DNA of 64,000 bases, taken from positions 124,001 to 188,000 of the forward strand of contig NZ_CANLGX010000004.1 of assembly GCF_947490415.1 (NCBI RefSeq). Direction: 5' to 3'. This DNA is from an uncultured Eudoraea sp. (GTDB taxonomy: Bacteria > Bacteroidota > Bacteroidia > Flavobacteriales > Flavobacteriaceae). Of this stretch, positions 37,976 to 54,954 are shown piece after piece. The notes beneath the pieces were generated by a model. The model was given only the letters and a program-made list of their open reading frames with translations. It had not been told where the DNA came from and did no database searches. The number at the start of each line of letters is the position of its first letter. Position 1 is the first letter of the stretch. The position numbers and the translations under genes are program-made.

Positions 37976-40900
37976 ATGATTTCAAGCAGATACCTCTCAT
38001 TTATTATCGCATTAATAACAATAGGCTTATTGGCACATTCATGTAGTCAAAAGTCAAAAATACCAAAGGAAACTCCCTTAACGTACAAGTTGGATTCTTT
38101 ATCTGCAGCGACCTTGGTTGATGTAAGTCAGGAGTATATTTCGCCAAAATTGGCAGATGGACTAAAATTGGACTTATGGGCATCAGATTCATTGGCTCCG
38201 GATCCCATTGCCATTGACATAGATGATGAAGGCAATGTATATCTAACGAGAACCAACAGGCAAAAAAATTCTGAATTTGATATCAGGGGGCATCAGGATT
38301 GGATGACGGCCTCCATTAGTCTGCAAACAGTAGAAGACAGGCGTGCTTTTTTGCGTAAAACATTCGCTCCTGAGCTCAGCAAAGAGAACGAATGGTTTCC
38401 TGATCTAAATAACGACAGCATACACGACTGGAAGGATCTCACCGTTGAAAAAGATGAAATATGGAAACTGGAAGACACCGACAAGGATGGTGTTGCCGAT
38501 GTTTCCAGACGTATTTTGGAAGATTTTAATGAAGAAATTACAGATGTTGCAGGCGCCTTATTAGTGCGGGACGATGATATTTTTGTTGGTATAGGACCCG
38601 ATATGTGGCGCGTAGAGGATTCAAATGGTGATGGTGTCATGGATACCAGAACTTCAATTGCACATGGTTTCGCAGTACATATTGGATTTGGAGCTCACGG
38701 AATGTCCGGGGCAATAGAAGGCCCCGATGGTAAAATTTATTGGGGAATTGGTGACATTGGAGCCAGTATCACCACAGTAGAAGGTGATACACTGCATTAT
38801 CCAAATCAAGGAGTAATTGTCCGATGTAATCCTGACGGTACCAACTTTGAAGTTTTTGCAAGAGGCCTTAGAAATACACACGAATTTGTTTTTGATGCGT
38901 ACGGCAATTTAATTTCTTCAGATAATGATGGGGACCACAGGGGAGAAAGTGAACGACTTGTGCATATTGTCGAAGGTTCGGATGCCGGATGGCGTGCAAA
39001 CTGGCAATACGGTAAATATACTGATCCTAAGAACAATAGCTATAAAGTGTGGATGGATGAAAAGCTATACCTCCCCCGCTGGGAAGGACAGGCAGCCTAT
39101 ATAATTCCTCCTATTGCGAATTACCATAATGGTCCTACAGGGATGGTTTATAACCCGGGGACCGCCCTTGGGAAGGACTGGCTGAATCAATTCTTTCTGG
39201 TTGAATTTGTGGGAGATCCGGCACTTTCACATATTTGGTCCTTTACTTTAAAGCCAAAAGGGGCTTCCTTTGATCTGGATAAGGAGACAGATGTCTTAAG
39301 TGGTGTCTTACCAACCGGTTTACAATTCGGGCCTGATGGTGCACTATACCTGGCTGATTGGATTAATGGTTGGGGGACAAAAAATTATGGACGCATCTGG
39401 AAATTGGATGTTGAAGATTCAAAAAACGATTTAAATGCAGAAAGACTGGAGACCCAAAGGCTTATGGTCTTAAAATATGAAGATCAGTCTGCCGATGATC
39501 TTGTTAAACTACTGGCGTATCCGGATATGCGCATAAGAAAAAAGGCTCAATTTGAGCTTGCAGACCGCACTTTTTGGGGATACAGGTCCTTAAAAAAGGT
39601 GATATTGGAAGATAAAAACCAATTCGCACGTATACACGCAATTTGGGGAATTGGTCAGATTGCTTCAGATAATATTAAGAAAGCCCAACCTTTAATGGAT
39701 TTATTGAATGATGAAGATCCCGAAATTATAGCTCAGGCGGCAAAAGTTATCGGAGATGTTAAATATAAGGAGGCCGGAGACAAACTCATTTCTTTACTGG
39801 AACATGAAAACGAAAGGGTGCGTTTCTTTGCAGCACAGGCTTTAGGAAGAATAGAATACAAGAAGGCAGTTCAGCCTTTAATTAATTTTCTGGCCGTTAA
39901 TAATGATGAGGATGTATACTTGCGTCATGCCGCAGTCCTGGCATTGAGCCGTATTGGTGAAGTTGAACCTATGGTTGCATTATCCGAGAACCCGGAAAGA
40001 AGTCTGCGGATTGCTGCAGTATTGGTCTTAAGAAGACTTCAAAATGAAGATGTAGCGGTATTTTTAAAAGACGATGATGAATACATTGTAGCGGAAGCAG
40101 CCAGAGCCATCAATGACGATTGGTCAATACTTGAAGCCATGCCTGCACTGGCAGGTCTTTTGGAGGAAGAAAGATTTACATCAGAACCGTTGCTTCGCAG
40201 AAGCATTAATGCCGCTTTAAGAGTTGGTGGTGAAGAAGAATTAGATATGCTTATTTCATTTGCAAAAAGAACAGATGTTTCCGGTGATCTTCGGGGAGAG
40301 GCCTTGGCGGCCATAGGCACCTGGGCATCCCCTTCCGTTTTAGACAGGGTAGATGGACGATACAGAGGAGAAATTAGTCGGGATTCAAATTTTGTAAAAC
40401 AAAAAATTCAGGGAGATATTCCGGTTTTCCTGGAGGATAAGGATCCTAATATTCTTATCGGCACTTCTAAAATTCTGGGAACCCTTGGAATATCAACCTA
40501 TAATTCTCAACTAAAAGCTATTCTAAGCAGAGATAGAAGACCGGAAGTAAGAGTTGCCATGATAGAAGCTTTAGGAGAATTACATGACGAGGCAATTGCC
40601 TCAATTGTAAAAACCGGGATGCGCGACAATGATGAAAATGTTCGCGCCGCAGCTGTGAGTATGATCCCTGAGTTAAATATTTCCAAAAATGAATTACCCG
40701 GAGTTATATATCCAATTTTTAAAAATGGATCTATCAGGGAACAGCAAGGAATGATAAATGCTTTGGCAGAAATGCCTCTTGATCAAAGTCAGGATGCAAT
40801 AGAGGATCTGATTCAAAAAGCAGGGAACAAACAACTTAATCCCGGAGTTATCCTGGATCTTATTGAGGCTGTGGAATCTACCCATTCCGAAGAACTGATT

Positions 40901-41386
40901 GCAAGTTTAGGAAAACTCAAAAATGGTGGGTATTCTATGGATTCTTATAGGGAAGCCCTATATGGAGGTCGTAGTTGGCCCGGGGCTAATGTTTTTAAAA
41001 ATAATTCAGCGGCACAGTGCGTAAGATGCCATGCAATTGATGGAGCCGGCGGTCAGGTAGGCCCGCCTCTGGACAATATAGCGAATATACTAAGCAGGGA
41101 AGAAATCTTACAATCCCTTATTGAACCCGGAGCCCGTTTGGCTCCCGGCTATGGATCTGTGGTGCTGACCCTTAAAGATGGCCAGGTGGTATCGGGAATA
41201 CTTGCAGCGGAAAACAAGGAGGAAATAATTCTTAAGACCTCTGATGCAGAACCTATGGAAATAGCGGTTTCAAGAATAAAGAAAAGAGAAAACATGCCTT
41301 CGGCAATGCCACCAATGGGAACGCTATTATCCAAAAGGGAACTTAGGGATTTGGTTGAATTTTTATCCAATTTAAAAGGAAAATAA
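37976..41386 (+). CDS. Large HEAT-repeat lipoprotein with PVC-type c-heme domain
   Basis: An 1136-residue probable lipoprotein (C23 after LLAHS). Residues about 45-470 form a beta-propeller-type glucose dehydrogenase-like domain (GVLPTGLQFGPDGALYLADW, ARGLRNTHEFVFDAYGN) with Asp-rich calcium-like loops DTDKDGVADV and DSNGDGVMD. Residues about 480-960 are HEAT repeats (RVRFFAAQALGRIEYKKAVQPL). A c-type cytochrome module follows with CVRCH (C1015, C1018, H1019) and VGPPLDNIA. This order is the planctomycete-style membrane-bound dehydrogenase/PVC heme-binding family, also in Bacteroidetes. Likely a periplasmic redox enzyme of unknown substrate. Confidence 0.9.
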   Translation: MISSRYLSFIIALITIGLLAHSCSQKSKIPKETPLTYKLDSLSAATLVDVSQEYISPKLADGLKLDLWASDSLAPDPIAIDIDDEGNVYLTRTNRQKNSEFDIRGHQDWMTASISLQTVEDRRAFLRKTFAPELSKENEWFPDLNNDSIHDWKDLTVEKDEIWKLEDTDKDGVADVSRRILEDFNEEITDVAGALLVRDDDIFVGIGPDMWRVEDSNGDGVMDTRTSIAHGFAVHIGFGAHGMSGAIEGPDGKIYWGIGDIGASITTVEGDTLHYPNQGVIVRCNPDGTNFEVFARGLRNTHEFVFDAYGNLISSDNDGDHRGESERLVHIVEGSDAGWRANWQYGKYTDPKNNSYKVWMDEKLYLPRWEGQAAYIIPPIANYHNGPTGMVYNPGTALGKDWLNQFFLVEFVGDPALSHIWSFTLKPKGASFDLDKETDVLSGVLPTGLQFGPDGALYLADWINGWGTKNYGRIWKLDVEDSKNDLNAERLETQRLMVLKYEDQSADDLVKLLAYPDMRIRKKAQFELADRTFWGYRSLKKVILEDKNQFARIHAIWGIGQIASDNIKKAQPLMDLLNDEDPEIIAQAAKVIGDVKYKEAGDKLISLLEHENERVRFFAAQALGRIEYKKAVQPLINFLAVNNDEDVYLRHAAVLALSRIGEVEPMVALSENPERSLRIAAVLVLRRLQNEDVAVFLKDDDEYIVAEAARAINDDWSILEAMPALAGLLEEERFTSEPLLRRSINAALRVGGEEELDMLISFAKRTDVSGDLRGEALAAIGTWASPSVLDRVDGRYRGEISRDSNFVKQKIQGDIPVFLEDKDPNILIGTSKILGTLGISTYNSQLKAILSRDRRPEVRVAMIEALGELHDEAIASIVKTGMRDNDENVRAAAVSMIPELNISKNELPGVIYPIFKNGSIREQQGMINALAEMPLDQSQDAIEDLIQKAGNKQLNPGVILDLIEAVESTHSEELIASLGKLKNGGYSMDSYREALYGGRSWPGANVFKNNSAAQCVRCHAIDGAGGQVGPPLDNIANILSREEILQSLIEPGARLAPGYGSVVLTLKDGQVVSGILAAENKEEIILKTSDAEPMEIAVSRIKKRENMPSAMPPMGTLLSKRELRDLVEFLSNLKGK

Positions 41387-44336: not shown

Positions 44337-46019
44337 ATGAAAACTCAAGACATTCTGTATCTAGGTATATTGATTTTATGTGTACTTAGCTTCACGAATT
44401 GCAAAAAGAATCCGAGACCTAATCCTGAATTGGCATCAATAGGCCTTTTCAGAGGAGACCTTGCCCTATGTGGCAGCGGACAGTTTGGAGAGGTGAGTTT
44501 TTCCCTCGCCTGTGATTATGAAACTCGTGCCGACTTTGATCTTGCGGTTTCTTTATTGCATTCCTTTGAATATGTTGAAGCAGAAAAGGCCTTTGTAAAT
44601 ATAATTGATAAGGATCCGGAATGCGCCATGGCCTATTGGGGCGTAGCAATGAGTAATTTCCACCCCTTGTGGTCTCCTCCTAGTAGGGAAGAACTCCAAA
44701 AAGGCTCTAAAATTCTTAAAATAGCAGCGACAATTCCAAAATCTGAGCGCTCCGGAGAATATCTGGATGCCATAAATGCCTTTTATACTGATTGGGAAAC
44801 CTTAGATCACAGTATCAGAATAAAACGCTTTGAATCTGAAATGGAACAAATCTTTAAGGCCTATCCCGATGATAAAGAGGCAGCAATTTTTTATGCACTG
44901 GCATTAAAGGCCGCTGCAGACATAACTGATAAAAATTATACTAATGAAAGAAAGGCAGGTGCTATACTGGAAGCCTTATTTCCAGATCAGCCAGATCATC
45001 CCGGGATTGCGCATTATATTATTCACAATTACGACAATCCTGTACTTGCAGAAATGGCATTGCCAACGGCCAGAAGGTATGCGGAAATTGCACCGGCTTC
45101 AGCTCATGCCCAACATATGCCTTCACATATCTTTACGCGATTGGGTTTATGGGAGGAATCAATTGATTCTAACCTAAACTCTACTTCTTCCGCAGTATGT
45201 TATGCATCTTCGATAGATGAAAATGCCCATTGGGATGAAGAAGTTCACGGCATGGGTTATTTAGTTTATGCCTATTTGCAAAAAGGAGATAACGATAAAG
45301 CCCAAGAACAATTCACATATCTTCAAGGTTTTGAAAAGGTGTTTCCGGCTAATTTCAAAATAGCATATACCACCGCAGCAATACCCTCAAGAATTGCACT
45401 TGAAAATAGAGATTGGGCCGCGGCGGCAGAACTTCAATTACCACTAATCGATATTGTTCCCTGGGATAAATTTCCATGGGAAAGATCTATTATGAATTTT
45501 TCTAAGGCCCTTGGAGCTGTTCATCTGGGCGACACTTTTTCTGCCAAAAATGAATTGAAAACCTTGAAATCAAATCGTCAGGAGTTAGTAGCACTTGGTG
45601 ATGACTATAAGGCCAACCAGGTAGAAATTCAAATTAATACTGTCCAGGCCTGGCTATACATGGCCGAAGGACAAAACAAACAGGCCTTGTCATTAATGCA
45701 AAAAGTAGTGGAGATGGAAGCTAATACTGCCAAACATCCTGTTACACCGGGTGAGGTTTTACCCGCTGTTGAGTTATTTGGTGATATGCTTCTTACCTTG
45801 GGCAATTCTGAGGGAGCACTCGAGGCCTACGAATTAGATCTAAAAACGCATCCCAACAGATTTAATGCGTTATATGGAGCTGCAGTAGCAGCCAAAGAAA
45901 GTGGGAATAATGAAAAAACGGCCTTCTATTTTGAAAAATTACTGGAGATTTCCTCATCAAACAGTGATCGTACCGAACTGGAAGAAGCTAAAAAATTCTT
46001 GAATGGTTATGAATCCTGA
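44337..46019 (+). CDS. Histidine-rich TPR lipoprotein
   Basis: A 560-residue lipoprotein (lipobox SFTNC, C22) of helical TPR-type repeats: AEKAFVNIIDKDPECAMAYWGVAMSNFHP, AKNELKTLKSNRQ, ALEAYELDLKTHPNRFNALYGAA. A compact histidine cluster is conserved with the next gene's product: HPGIAHYIIH (H221, H226, H230), then AHAQHMPSHIF (H257, H260, H264), plus H298 and H304. TPRs alone would not require these, so a metal site or enzymatic role is plausible but unproven. It is 65 bp upstream of its paralogue and in one run with SCO and SMP-30-like genes. Confidence 0.8.
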   Translation: MKTQDILYLGILILCVLSFTNCKKNPRPNPELASIGLFRGDLALCGSGQFGEVSFSLACDYETRADFDLAVSLLHSFEYVEAEKAFVNIIDKDPECAMAYWGVAMSNFHPLWSPPSREELQKGSKILKIAATIPKSERSGEYLDAINAFYTDWETLDHSIRIKRFESEMEQIFKAYPDDKEAAIFYALALKAAADITDKNYTNERKAGAILEALFPDQPDHPGIAHYIIHNYDNPVLAEMALPTARRYAEIAPASAHAQHMPSHIFTRLGLWEESIDSNLNSTSSAVCYASSIDENAHWDEEVHGMGYLVYAYLQKGDNDKAQEQFTYLQGFEKVFPANFKIAYTTAAIPSRIALENRDWAAAAELQLPLIDIVPWDKFPWERSIMNFSKALGAVHLGDTFSAKNELKTLKSNRQELVALGDDYKANQVEIQINTVQAWLYMAEGQNKQALSLMQKVVEMEANTAKHPVTPGEVLPAVELFGDMLLTLGNSEGALEAYELDLKTHPNRFNALYGAAVAAKESGNNEKTAFYFEKLLEISSSNSDRTELEEAKKFLNGYES

Positions 46020-46084
46020 TGCTATTTTGATCGTAGGTATTCATAAAAATAAGTAAAACTCAACTCAAATAAATAACAACAATC

Positions 46085-47815
46085 ATGAAAACAAAATCCG
46101 GCCTTATCATTGTCGCAATTGGGTTACTTGCCCTCGTTTATTTTTTACCTGGTCAGATGGGTGAAAAAAAACTGGATCATTCACAAAAAGCTTCTTTCTA
46201 CTCTATCAAATGTACAGTTGCTAAATATTTATTAAGCGATGTGGACACCACACAACAGATATCACCCTTATTCGAAAACCTTGGGAATCTTAGTTTTCCC
46301 ATAACCACATCCAAAGAAATGGCGCAAACTTTCTTTAATCAGGGTTTAAGACTTACCTATGCTTTTAATCATGCAGAAGCACACCGCTCTTTTATGGAAG
46401 CATCCAGACTGGATCCGAATTCTGCCATGACTTATTGGGGGCAAGCCTATGCATTGGGGCCTAACATAAATGATCAATTGCCGCCAGACGAGCGTAAGGA
46501 GAAATATAATGAAGCAATGGCAAAAGCCAAAAAACTGGCTGCCACTGCCAGTCCGAAAGAACAGGCATTAATTAATGCACTTACATCCAGATACAGTACT
46601 GACCTTACCAAGGATGTAGCAGAATTGAATATGGCTTATATGAATGCCATGACCGAAGTAGTAAAGGAATTTCCTGAGGATTCGAATATTCAAACACTCT
46701 ATGCAGCGTCTGTCATGAATACGGTACCGTGGAATTATTGGGATAAAGATGGGAACCCCTCCCCTAATATTGCCGAGGCAAAGGCCGCATTGGAAAAAGC
46801 CATGGAAATTAATCCGGATAATCCCGGGGCGCATCACTATTATATTCATATGGTTGAACTCCCAACACCGGATCTTGCGGTGCCTAGCGCAGATAAATTG
46901 GCTTCTCTTATGCCTGCTGCCGGCCATATTGTTCATATGCCCTCTCATATCTATATAAGAGTTGGCCGTTATCTTGATGCCGTAAAAATTAATCAGGCCG
47001 CTATTTTGGCGGATGAGGATTATATTTCACAATGTTATTCCCAGGGCCTTTATCCCCTTGGATATTATCCGCATAATATCCATTTCCTATGGTCTGCGGC
47101 AAGTTTATTAGGCGCCAGCGATATAGCTATTGATGCTGCCAAAAAAACGGCTGAAAAAGTACCCACAGGGGAATTAATAACACTTCCCTTTTTGCAGGAT
47201 TTTGCATCTACGCCAATGCTGGCCTATGTTCGTTTTGGTAAATGGAATGAGATATTGACTATCCCGGCTCCAAATCCGGAGATTAAGCATGTAAATCTTA
47301 TGAGGCACTATGCCCGTGGCATAGCCTTTGTCCGAAAAAACAATGCGAAAGAAGCCCAAGAAGAGCTGGATGCTCTTGCGTCCCTTAAGGAGGATCCGGA
47401 ACTGGAAAACCTCGTAGCTACAGCCAATAATAACTCCGCCTCGATTGCGCGTATAGCATATGAGGTAGTTGCCGGAGAATTGGCATCACTAAATGGCAAT
47501 CTACCAAAAGCAATTGAACATTTACAAAATGCAGTATCCCTGGAAGACAAACTGGTCTATACCGAGCCTGCGGCATGGCATGTACCCACACGCCAAAACC
47601 TGGGCGCAGTATTACTAAAAGCCAAAAAATACAATGAGGCTGAAATTATTTACAAAGAAGACCTGGAAGTATTAAGGCAAAACGGATGGTCGCTTATGGG
47701 TTTATATAAAAGTCTGTTAGCCCAGGGCAAAATGGATGAGGCAACACTAATTAAAGCCGAATATGACAAAGCATGGGAGAATGCTGATATTGAAATAGAC
47801 ACTTCCGTACTCTGA
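46085..47815 (+). CDS. Histidine-rich TPR protein, paralogue of preceding gene
   Basis: A 576-residue protein with an N-terminal membrane anchor or signal (LIIVAIGLLALVYFLP) and no clear lipobox. TPR-like units include FNHAEAHRSFMEASRLDPNSAMTYWGQA. Shared motifs with the preceding protein: AMTYWGQA versus AMAYWGVA, NPGAHHYYIHMVE versus HPGIAHYIIHNYD, and GHIVHMPSHIY versus AHAQHMPSHIF (H281, H284, H288). H96, H100, H330 and H333 are further candidates. The family is widespread but functionally uncharacterised. It is followed after 62 bp by a SCO gene. Confidence 0.8.
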   Translation: MKTKSGLIIVAIGLLALVYFLPGQMGEKKLDHSQKASFYSIKCTVAKYLLSDVDTTQQISPLFENLGNLSFPITTSKEMAQTFFNQGLRLTYAFNHAEAHRSFMEASRLDPNSAMTYWGQAYALGPNINDQLPPDERKEKYNEAMAKAKKLAATASPKEQALINALTSRYSTDLTKDVAELNMAYMNAMTEVVKEFPEDSNIQTLYAASVMNTVPWNYWDKDGNPSPNIAEAKAALEKAMEINPDNPGAHHYYIHMVELPTPDLAVPSADKLASLMPAAGHIVHMPSHIYIRVGRYLDAVKINQAAILADEDYISQCYSQGLYPLGYYPHNIHFLWSAASLLGASDIAIDAAKKTAEKVPTGELITLPFLQDFASTPMLAYVRFGKWNEILTIPAPNPEIKHVNLMRHYARGIAFVRKNNAKEAQEELDALASLKEDPELENLVATANNNSASIARIAYEVVAGELASLNGNLPKAIEHLQNAVSLEDKLVYTEPAAWHVPTRQNLGAVLLKAKKYNEAEIIYKEDLEVLRQNGWSLMGLYKSLLAQGKMDEATLIKAEYDKAWENADIEIDTSVL

Positions 47816-47877
47816 AAATAGTGGAAGAAGAAGTCAATGAGTTACATTTAGCAGATTAAGTTAATAATACCGAATCA

Positions 47878-48540
47878 TTGCAGACTGAATTTTTTAAAAA
47901 TCCGCATTTAAGGCAGGGGATAATTGTATTTCTTGTACTTACATCCTTATTAATTTTTTTTTCCTATTGGTTGCAGGAAGAACAACCGGGGATTTATAAC
48001 CCTTCAGATTTAAATCCTGCATTGGTAGACCAAAGTTTGCATAAGATTGAGCGAAATCATAAGGTTGCACCATTTGAATTGATTAATCAGAATGGCGATA
48101 CAATTACACAGGAAGATTACAAAAACACAATCTATGTAACGGATTTCTTTTTTACCCGATGCCCTAGTATTTGTCCTGTAATGACTAATAATATGGAAGT
48201 GTTACAGCAGGAATTTATTAGTAATAACGACATAAAGTTACTGTCCATTTCAGTGACTCCGGAGATAGATAGTGTTTCTGTTTTATATAATTATGCTTCT
48301 AAAAATGGTGCCCTAGATACTAAATGGAATATTACCACCGGTAACAAAAAACATATTTATGAACTTGCCCGTAAAAGTTATTTTGCTGTGGTTGATGAGG
48401 GTGATGGCGGTCTGCAGGATTTTATTCATACGCCCAACTTCGTGCTGGTGGACAAAGAAAAACAGATACGAGGTATCTATGACGGCACTAAAGATGAAGA
48501 AATTCAGCGTTTGATTAAAGACATCAGAACCTTACAATAG
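47878..48540 (+). CDS. SCO1/SenC/PrrC family copper chaperone
   Basis: A 220-residue thioredoxin-fold protein with one N-terminal membrane anchor (GIIVFLVLTSLLIFFSYWL). The copper site is complete: CPSIC (C95, C99) and H184 in DFIHTPNFVLVD. SCO proteins load copper into the CuA site of cytochrome oxidase or act as thiol reductases. The frame is closed at 47857-47859 and has no ATG before the thioredoxin domain; TTG at 47878 gives the proper anchor. Placement after two histidine-rich TPR genes suggests a shared metal-related role. Confidence 0.92.
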   Translation: MQTEFFKNPHLRQGIIVFLVLTSLLIFFSYWLQEEQPGIYNPSDLNPALVDQSLHKIERNHKVAPFELINQNGDTITQEDYKNTIYVTDFFFTRCPSICPVMTNNMEVLQQEFISNNDIKLLSISVTPEIDSVSVLYNYASKNGALDTKWNITTGNKKHIYELARKSYFAVVDEGDGGLQDFIHTPNFVLVDKEKQIRGIYDGTKDEEIQRLIKDIRTLQ

Positions 48541-52240: not shown

Positions 52241-53224
52241 ATGAGAAAGAACCCAATTATGAAACATTTCCTGATTTTATCCTTTTTGGCCCTGGCCGTC
52301 CTGTCTTGTAATAATGACGACGATGGCGGTTCCCAATCAGGAGAAAACATTGTTGAATTAGCAATTGCCAATCCAAATTTATCCACTTTGGTTGAGGCAC
52401 TGGAAATTACAGGTTTGGTTACTACCCTTGAAGGCCCCGGTCCTTTTACGGTTCTGGCACCTACAAATGCTGCGTTCGACCTATTTTTAGCTACCGGAAA
52501 TTTTCCAAGTATCAATGATGTTCCTGTTGATGTTCTGGAACAAGTACTACTTAATCATGTAATAGGTTCACAAATAAATGCGGCTAATTTTGTAACTCTT
52601 TCCCGGAACTATGCAGAGACCCTGGCAGACGGTCCAACCACTGGCACAAAGCTCTCTCTATATTTCAACGCCACCGGTGCTGCAATAGAATTTAACGGCG
52701 CTTCTAAAGTAATTGACGCGGATGTGCTTGCTTCCAATGGTGTTATTCATACCGTTGACACCGTAATAGATTTTCCAACGGTGATGACTTTTATAACCAA
52801 CGATATAAATTTTCAACAATTAACTACTGCTCTAACGACGGCAACACCGGGTACAGATTTCGCCGCTCTTCTTTCCGGCACTGGACCATTTACGGTATTT
52901 GCACCCGCGGAAATAGCCTTCGACGCTTTGCTGGCTACTAACGACAACTGGAATACAGTAAGCGATATTGATGAGGATTTGTTAACCGCTGTGCTCCAGC
53001 ATCATGTAAGCAATGGCAATCTTCGCTCTGAGGCTATTACCGATGAATCAACTGTTACTACCCTGGAAGGTGACGACATTACATTTTCATTATCACTTGG
53101 TCTAATTACAATTACTGATGGTTCCGGTAATTCGGAAATCGTATTAGCGGTAGCCGATTTACAAGCTGCGAATGGTGTTATTCATCTTATTACAGAAGTA
53201 ATGATCCCGGATACAACCAATTAG
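52241..53224 (+). CDS. Fasciclin (FAS1) lipoprotein, two domains
   Basis: A 327-residue lipoprotein: lipobox VLSC (C23) followed by NNDDDGG, an acidic stretch like the Bacteroidetes lipoprotein export signal for surface display. Two FAS1 domains (about 38-185 and 188-325) each contain the H1 TVLAPTNAAFD / TVFAPAEIAFD motif and the H2 ANGVIHTVDTVI / ANGVIHLITEV motif. FAS1 domains mediate adhesion to proteins or polysaccharides. An alternative start at 52259 would shorten the signal peptide. Paired with a three-domain paralogue downstream. Confidence 0.93.
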   Translation: MRKNPIMKHFLILSFLALAVLSCNNDDDGGSQSGENIVELAIANPNLSTLVEALEITGLVTTLEGPGPFTVLAPTNAAFDLFLATGNFPSINDVPVDVLEQVLLNHVIGSQINAANFVTLSRNYAETLADGPTTGTKLSLYFNATGAAIEFNGASKVIDADVLASNGVIHTVDTVIDFPTVMTFITNDINFQQLTTALTTATPGTDFAALLSGTGPFTVFAPAEIAFDALLATNDNWNTVSDIDEDLLTAVLQHHVSNGNLRSEAITDESTVTTLEGDDITFSLSLGLITITDGSGNSEIVLAVADLQAANGVIHLITEVMIPDTTN

Positions 53225-53529: not shown

Positions 53530-54954
53530 ATGAAATCAAGTCCAAATTTTTTTAAAGCGATACTGGCAAGTCTTGTATTTGTTATATCGTTTTCATGTTC
53601 TGATGACGATAATGGTGGCCCAGTGATAACTGATCCGGAACTAAATATTGTCGAAATCGCTTTACAAACTCCCGAACTTAGTATTCTTGTTTCTGCACTA
53701 CAGGCAGCAGACGGGAATTTAGTAGATTTGCTTGGCACAGATGGCCCATTTACTGTTTTAGCCCCTACAAATGCAGCTTTTACTGCTTTCCTGGCTTCTA
53801 ATGGTTTTGGTTCCCTGGATGACGTCCCGACAGATGTTTTGTCGGAAATTTTATTAAATCATGTTATTTCAGCTGATATTACTTCAAGTGATTTAGCTGC
53901 AGCAGGAGCTGGTTACGCCAGTACGAATGCTTCAGGTGCAGGAGGGAATTTTATCAGCATATATTTTAACACTTCCAATGGAGTACGTTTTAATAATGTT
54001 GCAGCAGTAACAGATGGTGGCGCCGATATTGACGCCTCTAACGGAACAATACATATTGTAGATGCAGTTATTCCTATCCCTTCAATACTTGCTCATGCAG
54101 CAGCGAATGCGGATTTCAATAGTTTAGCTGTAGCCTTAGGTGCTGCAGACGGAGATCTGATTGATGTTTTAAGTCAAGATGGACCTTTTACTGTTTTAGC
54201 GCCAGACAATGCAGCATTCAGCACTTTCCTTGACGGTGCAGATTTAGGTGGTGTGAATACCGCTGTACTTTCTCAGATATTACTGAACCATGTGCTTGAT
54301 GGCGTAGTTACCTCCTCTGACTTAGTCGCCGGTGGTGCCGGTTATACAAATACCAGTGCAACAGGACCAGGAACAAATGCCTTAAGTTTATATTATAACA
54401 CCTCTGATGGAGTAGTTTTTAATGGAATTTCTGCAGTAACTGCTGCGGACGTAGTGGGGACAAACGGAATTATACATGCAGTTGATACTGTTATTGATAT
54501 TCCTACGGTAGTAACTTTTGCAGCCGCAGATCCTAATTTCTCTACTTTAGTGGAGGCATTAACCACGCTAACACCGGGAACTGATTTTGTTAGTATTTTA
54601 TCAAGAACAGAAGGCAGTAATGCCGATGGGATTAATCCTGATTTTACAGTTTTTGCACCTACAAATGATGCTTTTACTGATTTAGGTGACCTTCCGGGAG
54701 AAGTTGCATTGACACAAGTATTATTGCATCACGTAGTGAGTGAGGCAAACCTCGCATCCTCTGCTTTGAATGATGGTGATAATGTTGCCACTACCCTTGA
54801 AGGTGATGACATAACCGTAACTGTTATAGGAAACCCTGTTATTGTAACAGATGGTTCCGGAAATGAAGCGGGAATCATTGCTACGGATGTCCAGGCCGGA
54901 AACGGAGTAATCCATGTACTTGATTCAGTACTTCTTCCTGATACTACAAACTAA
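53530..54954 (+). CDS. Fasciclin (FAS1) lipoprotein, three domains
   Basis: A 474-residue lipoprotein: cysteine C23 in FSCSDDDNGG, where SDDD fits a Bacteroidetes surface-export signal. Three FAS1 domains (about 38-185, 188-325, 328-472) with H1 motifs TVLAPTNAAFTAFLAS, TVLAPDNAAFSTFLD and TVFAPTNDAFTDL, and H2 motifs ASNGTIHIVDAVI, GTNGIIHAVDTVI and AGNGVIHVLDSVL. The first two domains are very alike, pointing to internal duplication. Likely surface adhesin. Separate promoter region and terminator from its paralogue upstream. Confidence 0.93.
   Translation: MKSSPNFFKAILASLVFVISFSCSDDDNGGPVITDPELNIVEIALQTPELSILVSALQAADGNLVDLLGTDGPFTVLAPTNAAFTAFLASNGFGSLDDVPTDVLSEILLNHVISADITSSDLAAAGAGYASTNASGAGGNFISIYFNTSNGVRFNNVAAVTDGGADIDASNGTIHIVDAVIPIPSILAHAAANADFNSLAVALGAADGDLIDVLSQDGPFTVLAPDNAAFSTFLDGADLGGVNTAVLSQILLNHVLDGVVTSSDLVAGGAGYTNTSATGPGTNALSLYYNTSDGVVFNGISAVTAADVVGTNGIIHAVDTVIDIPTVVTFAAADPNFSTLVEALTTLTPGTDFVSILSRTEGSNADGINPDFTVFAPTNDAFTDLGDLPGEVALTQVLLHHVVSEANLASSALNDGDNVATTLEGDDITVTVIGNPVIVTDGSGNEAGIIATDVQAGNGVIHVLDSVLLPDTTN

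Follow-up and report, generated by a model that had tools for sequence, protein, structure and literature searches.

The window analysed here is a stretch of 64,000 nucleotides from an uncultured Eudoraea sp. (contig NZ_CANLGX010000004.1, positions 124,001 to 188,000) that encodes two adjacent tetratricopeptide repeat (TPR) proteins, P1 and P2, followed on the same strand by a protein of the SCO/SenC copper-chaperone family. P1 and P2 belong to one family, in which one methionine and six histidines are invariant, the histidines at helix positions that normally vary most in TPR proteins. We propose that these residues, carried on three consecutive TPR units, would line the concave face as a built-in metal site; this site would most likely be catalytic, and not an ordinary groove for binding peptides. 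For the Flavobacteriaceae P2 lineage, copper would be the most likely metal, loaded outside the cytoplasm by the downstream SCO, a putative dedicated paralogue distinct from the SCOs that neighbour cytochrome oxidase genes or feoB; P1 would belong to the same module as a second member, probably with a lipid anchor. Taken whole, this reading has in our judgement an even chance of being right. To judge from sequence, binding of a metal of some kind is likely; that the metal is copper in the SCO-linked lineage falls a little short of an even prospect. These gradings are judgements, and the alternatives weighed below are not all mutually exclusive. The genes and residues concerned are as follows.

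44337 to 46019, + strand: P1, TPR-solenoid protein of 560 amino acids, probable lipoprotein (FTNC22), from Pfam TPR_16 and TPR_6 above cut-off, the structural model and conservation of C22
45012 to 45128, + strand: P1 H226 and H230 (helix A1, residues 222-231) and H257, H260, M261 and H264 (helix A2, residues 256-268), invariant in 22/22 and 176/176 members
45246 to 45248, + strand: P1 H304 (helix A3, residues 300-315), the sixth invariant histidine
46085 to 47815, + strand: P2, TPR-solenoid protein of 576 amino acids with an N-terminal hydrophobic helix (anchor or signal), from Pfam TPR_2 and TPR_19 above cut-off and the model
46835 to 46948, + strand: P2 H251, H255, H281, H284, M285 and H288, from alignment and invariance
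47072 to 47074, + strand: P2 H330, equivalent to P1 H304, the sixth invariant histidine
47878 to 48540, + strand: SCO/SenC protein of 220 amino acids with an N-terminal hydrophobic stretch, of the P2-linked SCO clade, from PF02630 (8.1e-27) and the SCO tree
48160 to 48174, + strand: SCO CPSIC motif (C95, C99), from the translation
48427 to 48429, + strand: SCO distal histidine H184 (FIHTPN), from a residue check

The coordinates, the strand and the 62-bp gap before the SCO gene are as described in an earlier note on this DNA, which had seen in P1 and P2 diverged tandem paralogues with a common histidine pattern. The two proteins are 25% identical over 269 amino acids and keep that pattern, as HPGIAHYIIH...HAQHMPSHIF in P1 and NPGAHHYYIH...HIVHMPSHIY in P2. 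The five histidines listed in the note are all invariant, but a sixth (P1 H304, P2 H330) and the invariant methionine had been overlooked.

AlphaFold models of both proteins are all-helical TPR-type solenoids, with a predicted local distance difference test score (pLDDT) of 89.4 and a predicted template modelling score (pTM) of 0.86 for P1, and 88.6 and 0.85 for P2, in which residues 4-25 form a helix. Both combine TPR profile matches with the alternating A and B helices of a TPR solenoid, and among the matches listed by structure searches (Foldseek for both, VIA-align for P1 only) generic TPR chains are prominent, alongside other helical repeats. With the repeat register anchored on the conserved Gly (position 15) and Ala/Ser (position 20), H226 and H230 of P1 fall at positions 5 and 9, H257, H260 and H264 at positions 2, 5 and 9, and H304 at position 2 of three successive A helices. 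The turn after H255 in P2 is one residue shorter, and the first histidine pair of P2 was matched via P1. Drawn as a helical wheel, the histidine groups and the core lie 130-170 degrees apart. PMC1261162 names positions 2, 5, 9, 12, 13, 33 and 34 as those of greatest variability in TPRs and assigns them to the concave surface. P1 and P2 share the fold and repeat signature of the Pfam TPR clan, but the usually variable concave positions 2, 5 and 9 are invariant histidines in three of their repeats. The same source gives concave positions 2, 5, 6, 9, 12 and 13 as the ligand contacts of HOP TPR1 and TPR2A; there they bind peptide, whereas in the P1/P2 family positions 2, 5 and 9 carry the histidines. 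PMC7524759 treats the HOP clamp and contributed no TPR numbering here.

An alignment of 22 members (this genome supplied four, further genomes in a phylum sample ten, and plasmids of Pseudomonadota and Fusobacteriota eight) has a median pairwise identity of 24% and 14 invariant columns, six of them histidine and one methionine. Against a background histidine frequency of about 3.2%, the enrichment among invariant columns is, to judge from these sequences, more than chance. All seven residues are present in 176/176 full-length members, a count conditional on recognition by a selection profile that itself contains these positions. The members (80 Flavobacteriaceae loci contribute 98, the remaining genome loci 59 and plasmids 19) come from 178 profile hits, with two fragments shorter than 430 amino acids, one broken gene in L129, excluded; in that locus a P1-like gene is broken in two (L129:8677-10352). 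A looser recheck found a family gene with all seven residues at five loci absent from the first open reading frame (ORF) pass (L153, L158, L163, L182 and L183). Outside the 80 Flavobacteriaceae loci it recovered all seven in 129 of 130 hits (E <= 1e-10), which represent 103 distinct sequences, many being repeats of one gene; the lone exception, a 954-amino-acid protein at 38 bits, is probably an unrelated TPR protein. The family spans five phyla (Bacteroidota, Pseudomonadota, Fusobacteriota, Actinomycetota and Gemmatimonadota) and occurs in at least 77 of the 296 genomes of the phylum sample, a lower bound given the few candidates scored per genome.

Because the histidines are invariant at positions that normally vary, the site would have one shared chemistry, and the two H-x3-H pairs with two further histidines and the methionine suggest a metal, possibly two. 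The earlier proposal of a metal-binding or enzymatic module thus gains good, though indirect, support from six invariant groove-position histidines on confident TPR models. If correct, such a cluster, at positions normally the most variable, would make testable metalloproteins or enzymes of many presumed adaptors. It is through these same positions that TPR grooves usually contact their ligands (PMC1261162), and the annotated plasmid settings of the family are metabolically diverse, as might be expected if the histidines bound no metal and served substrate binding or acid-base chemistry instead, with a carboxylate, a phosphate or haem as possible ligands. Six histidines and a methionine kept in 176/176 members, with two H-x3-H pairs, would however exceed the usual need of a ligand clamp, and we regard a metal-free site as quite unlikely.

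Type 3 dicopper proteins (tyrosinase, haemocyanin) carry six helix-borne histidines, including H-x3-H pairs, with three histidines for each of two copper ions. P1 and P2 match them in histidine count but differ in scaffold, a TPR solenoid; a Pfam search at E <= 0.1 detected no tyrosinase or haemocyanin domain in either protein. A type-3-like two-metal enzyme would be a doubtful identification. Equally doubtful is the boldest form of the proposal, a new metalloenzyme class with a dinuclear type-3-like copper or two-metal centre of six histidines in a TPR groove and a dedicated SCO as its inserter in Flavobacteriaceae; under it, members elsewhere that are cytosolic might employ another metal.

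The downstream gene encodes a full SCO1/SenC member (PF02630, 8.1e-27) with the CxxxC motif and distal histidine intact, so the earlier description of it as complete holds; its start is TTG, as called by the ORF finder. Among the best 80 of 583 candidate P2 loci in Flavobacteriaceae, where the closest relatives of P2 found are from Eudoraea (93-95% identity), SCO lies directly downstream of P2 in 43. A FastTree phylogeny of P2 implies at least nine switches between presence and absence of SCO, and the SCO-bearing loci occupy several settings: DnaK/PanB/SdaA in 14, MnmA/NPD in nine, FecCD/RmuC in five, RmuC only in one, PepM28 only in two and none of these markers in 12. In a tree of 67 SCOs (45 P2-linked, 10 linked to cytochrome oxidase (COX) genes, nine FeoB-linked and three other; FastTree, midpoint root), from which the split SCO of L025 was excluded, all 45 P2-linked SCOs fall in one clade with support of 0.93, and 9/10 COX-linked and 9/9 FeoB-linked SCOs fall in separate clades of their own. 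The SCO of the window thus has the CxxxC and distal histidine of SCO1/SenC but belongs to a clade apart from the COX-linked and FeoB-linked proteins; CxxxC and the downstream histidine are kept in 45/45 of its P2-linked relatives. A dedicated SCO in the P2 lineage would indicate copper delivery to P2, and this would assign a function to a marine Flavobacteriaceae SCO lineage distinct from the cytochrome-oxidase one.

The adjacency of P1, P2 and SCO on one strand could also reflect a chaperone relay, in which the TPR pair passes copper to SCO and SCO then serves cytochrome oxidase. This genome, however, carries two further strong SCOs, one inside its cytochrome oxidase cluster and one beside feoAB, together with a fourth, weak one, and the P2-linked SCOs form their own clade; such a relay is the least probable of the alternatives weighed here. 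The earlier note had allowed transfer in either direction. Because the genome retains another SCO in the cytochrome oxidase cluster, transfer from SCO to the TPR proteins would fit better than the reverse.

The SCO neighbour might also be an accident of genome order, functionally unconnected with P1 and P2. SCO is absent downstream of P2 in 37/80 loci and from most surveyed family loci, and although all 77 family-positive genomes have SCO, so do 258 of the 296 overall (E <= 0.001). Family-SCO co-occurrence was accordingly set aside as uninformative. Against an accident, the pair persists across several distinct settings and its SCOs form a clade of their own, making this explanation very unlikely. 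The association proposed earlier is therefore conserved, within the P2 lineage of Flavobacteriaceae; elsewhere, copper-type neighbours occur at 7/74 loci. Because the SCO link was seen in that lineage only, the histidine site is probably the older of the two.

A further possibility is a site for another metal (iron, zinc, manganese or nickel), with SCO acting as a thiol-disulphide oxidoreductase on P2 C43 and C317, not as a copper donor. Both cysteines are conserved in the P2 set, the SCO also overlaps the AhpC-TSA thioredoxin-type family (below the cut-off of that family), and metals other than copper are hinted at by several neighbours: a FecCD-type ABC transporter before P2 in 20/80 loci, an SCO4226-like 'nickel responsive' gene near the Ilyobacter member and at two loci of group f23, and ArsR/SmtB regulators with an iron ABC permease in a Rhodococcus region. 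However, P2 proteins that lack a neighbouring SCO keep C43 and C317 just as well (at least 97% of 81 P2 rows), and the copper-ligand set is kept in 45/45 linked SCOs. This alternative is unlikely, though it is the strongest of those considered. Comparison of SCO-linked with SCO-less P2 proteins revealed no fixed extra ligand set; some methionine positions and one histidine position differ in frequency.

Export of the three proteins is suggested by their N termini. The hydrophobic N terminus of P1 ends in a probable lipobox; C22 is conserved within the P1 set, of which 12/19 satisfy the strict lipobox pattern. With the hydrophobic starts of P2 and SCO, this would place all three proteins probably outside the cytoplasm. 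The genes lie in the order P1, P2, SCO on the + strand, separated by 65 bp and 62 bp, and a promoter and terminator scan found no + strand terminator-like site between them. Three weak + strand promoter-like matches lie near the P2-SCO junction, in counts not above those of shuffled sequence. A single P1-P2-SCO transcript is plausible on this layout. P1 lies upstream of P2 in 20/41 SCO-bearing and 0/34 SCO-less loci (Fisher p 4e-7; window included, six loci with short upstream sequence excluded).

Several observations weigh against an exported, copper-loaded catalytic site. Convergence of the six histidines in space is an inference from helical register, and the structure-search matches listed comprise generic TPR and helical-repeat proteins, with no metalloenzyme seen among them. 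Besides the 37 P2 loci that lack SCO, the genome G182 has an extra SCO, closest to that of the window, which does not adjoin P2 (L216). Over independent pairs the contrast between P1 and SCO runs in the same direction in 3.2 of 5, opposite in 0 and equal in 1.8, and is not significant (median p 0.25); P1-type genes without adjacent SCO also exist, for example at L124, L126 and L127. Beyond the 80 Flavobacteriaceae loci, copper-type genes lie within five genes of the family gene at only 7/74 loci: SCO at L123 and L125, the Acinetobacter loci L143, L144 and L161, Ilyobacter L146, and an opposite-strand P-ATPase at L191. Five of these seven are either the P2-SCO arrangement (two) or one Acinetobacter island found three times. 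The Acinetobacter member, judged by eye, has no signal peptide and would hence reside in the cytosol, a compartment with little free copper.

The consistent copper neighbours expected of a copper resistance or homeostasis module are thus missing family-wide, and a copper role for the whole family was rejected. This survey used 23 seed proteins, phmmer and a five-gene reach, which could miss distant copper genes; its 74 loci are partly redundant (near-identical plasmids, several loci per genome), leave out L153, L158, L163, L182 and L183, and have no random-region control. SCO neighbours are so infrequent among the other family members that copper may have been adopted by one lineage, or may be the wrong metal. 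Among the SCO places listed for the phylum sample, adjacency is confined to the window genome, G134 and G182, a search in which weak SCO genes could be missed.

The neighbourhoods of the remaining members are varied. On Acinetobacter plasmids (three of 21 matched records) a CDF transporter and the family gene are followed by an ArsR regulator, a heavy-metal P-ATPase and cueR; on the plasmid of L143, blaOXA-58 lies about 8 kb from the family gene (L143:1401-3089). The Ilyobacter plasmid has multicopper oxidases, a cupredoxin and a DUF4242 gene close to the family gene. These Acinetobacter and Ilyobacter regions are independent copper settings and speak for the proposal. At the other annotated plasmid loci examined, no gene is named as a copper gene, four plasmid loci being unannotated in the region concerned, and a phage search gave no P2 match. 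In group f23, one family of the phylum sample (L130, L131, L132, L133, L137 and L203), the histidine-TPR gene accompanies OsmC and S-adenosylmethionine (SAM)-methyltransferase genes at 6/6 loci, with an NnrU/PEMT-type membrane protein at 5/6 and the SCO4226-like gene at 2/6; L130 also has a ChrR-type cupin. This neighbourhood is thus a recurring cluster.

The family is widespread and unnamed. Pfam returns generic TPR models only for P1 and P2, NCBIfam hits are all far below the curated cut-offs and mostly to TPR models, and a sequence search of solved structures gives weak hits, mostly to TPR repeats. In the annotated records examined, members are labelled only as 'tetratricopeptide repeat/domain protein' or 'hypothetical protein', and among the papers listed by literature searches none was recognisable as treating the histidine-TPR family. 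The human TPR protein TTC38 may have a similar histidine pattern. PMC5780481 treats TTC38 in the context of metabolite genetics.

Some arrangements around P2 and SCO are recorded for their own sake. The FecCD-type transporter that precedes P2 (L036, L041, L053 and others) is of the periplasmic-binding-protein ABC type, and at these loci rmuC lies downstream of P2; P1 and SCO sometimes share the interval between transporter and rmuC. L123 (G134:C1:3779350-3785015) has two tandem P1-type genes, then P2 and SCO, and at L025:9744-10399 the SCO gene is split over two frames. A second Flavobacteriaceae SCO lineage, forming one clade, lies beside feoB (L165, L205, L207, L210, L211, L215, L218, L220 and L223), an unexplained pairing of a copper chaperone with iron transport. 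Upstream of the TPR genes, window positions 37976-41386 encode a large HEAT-repeat protein with a DUF7133 domain and a C-terminal cytochrome c domain, which is found close to P2 at a few further loci too. Positions 52241-53224 and 53530-54954 encode adjacent proteins with FAS1/fasciclin-looking repeats, judged by eye from the translations.

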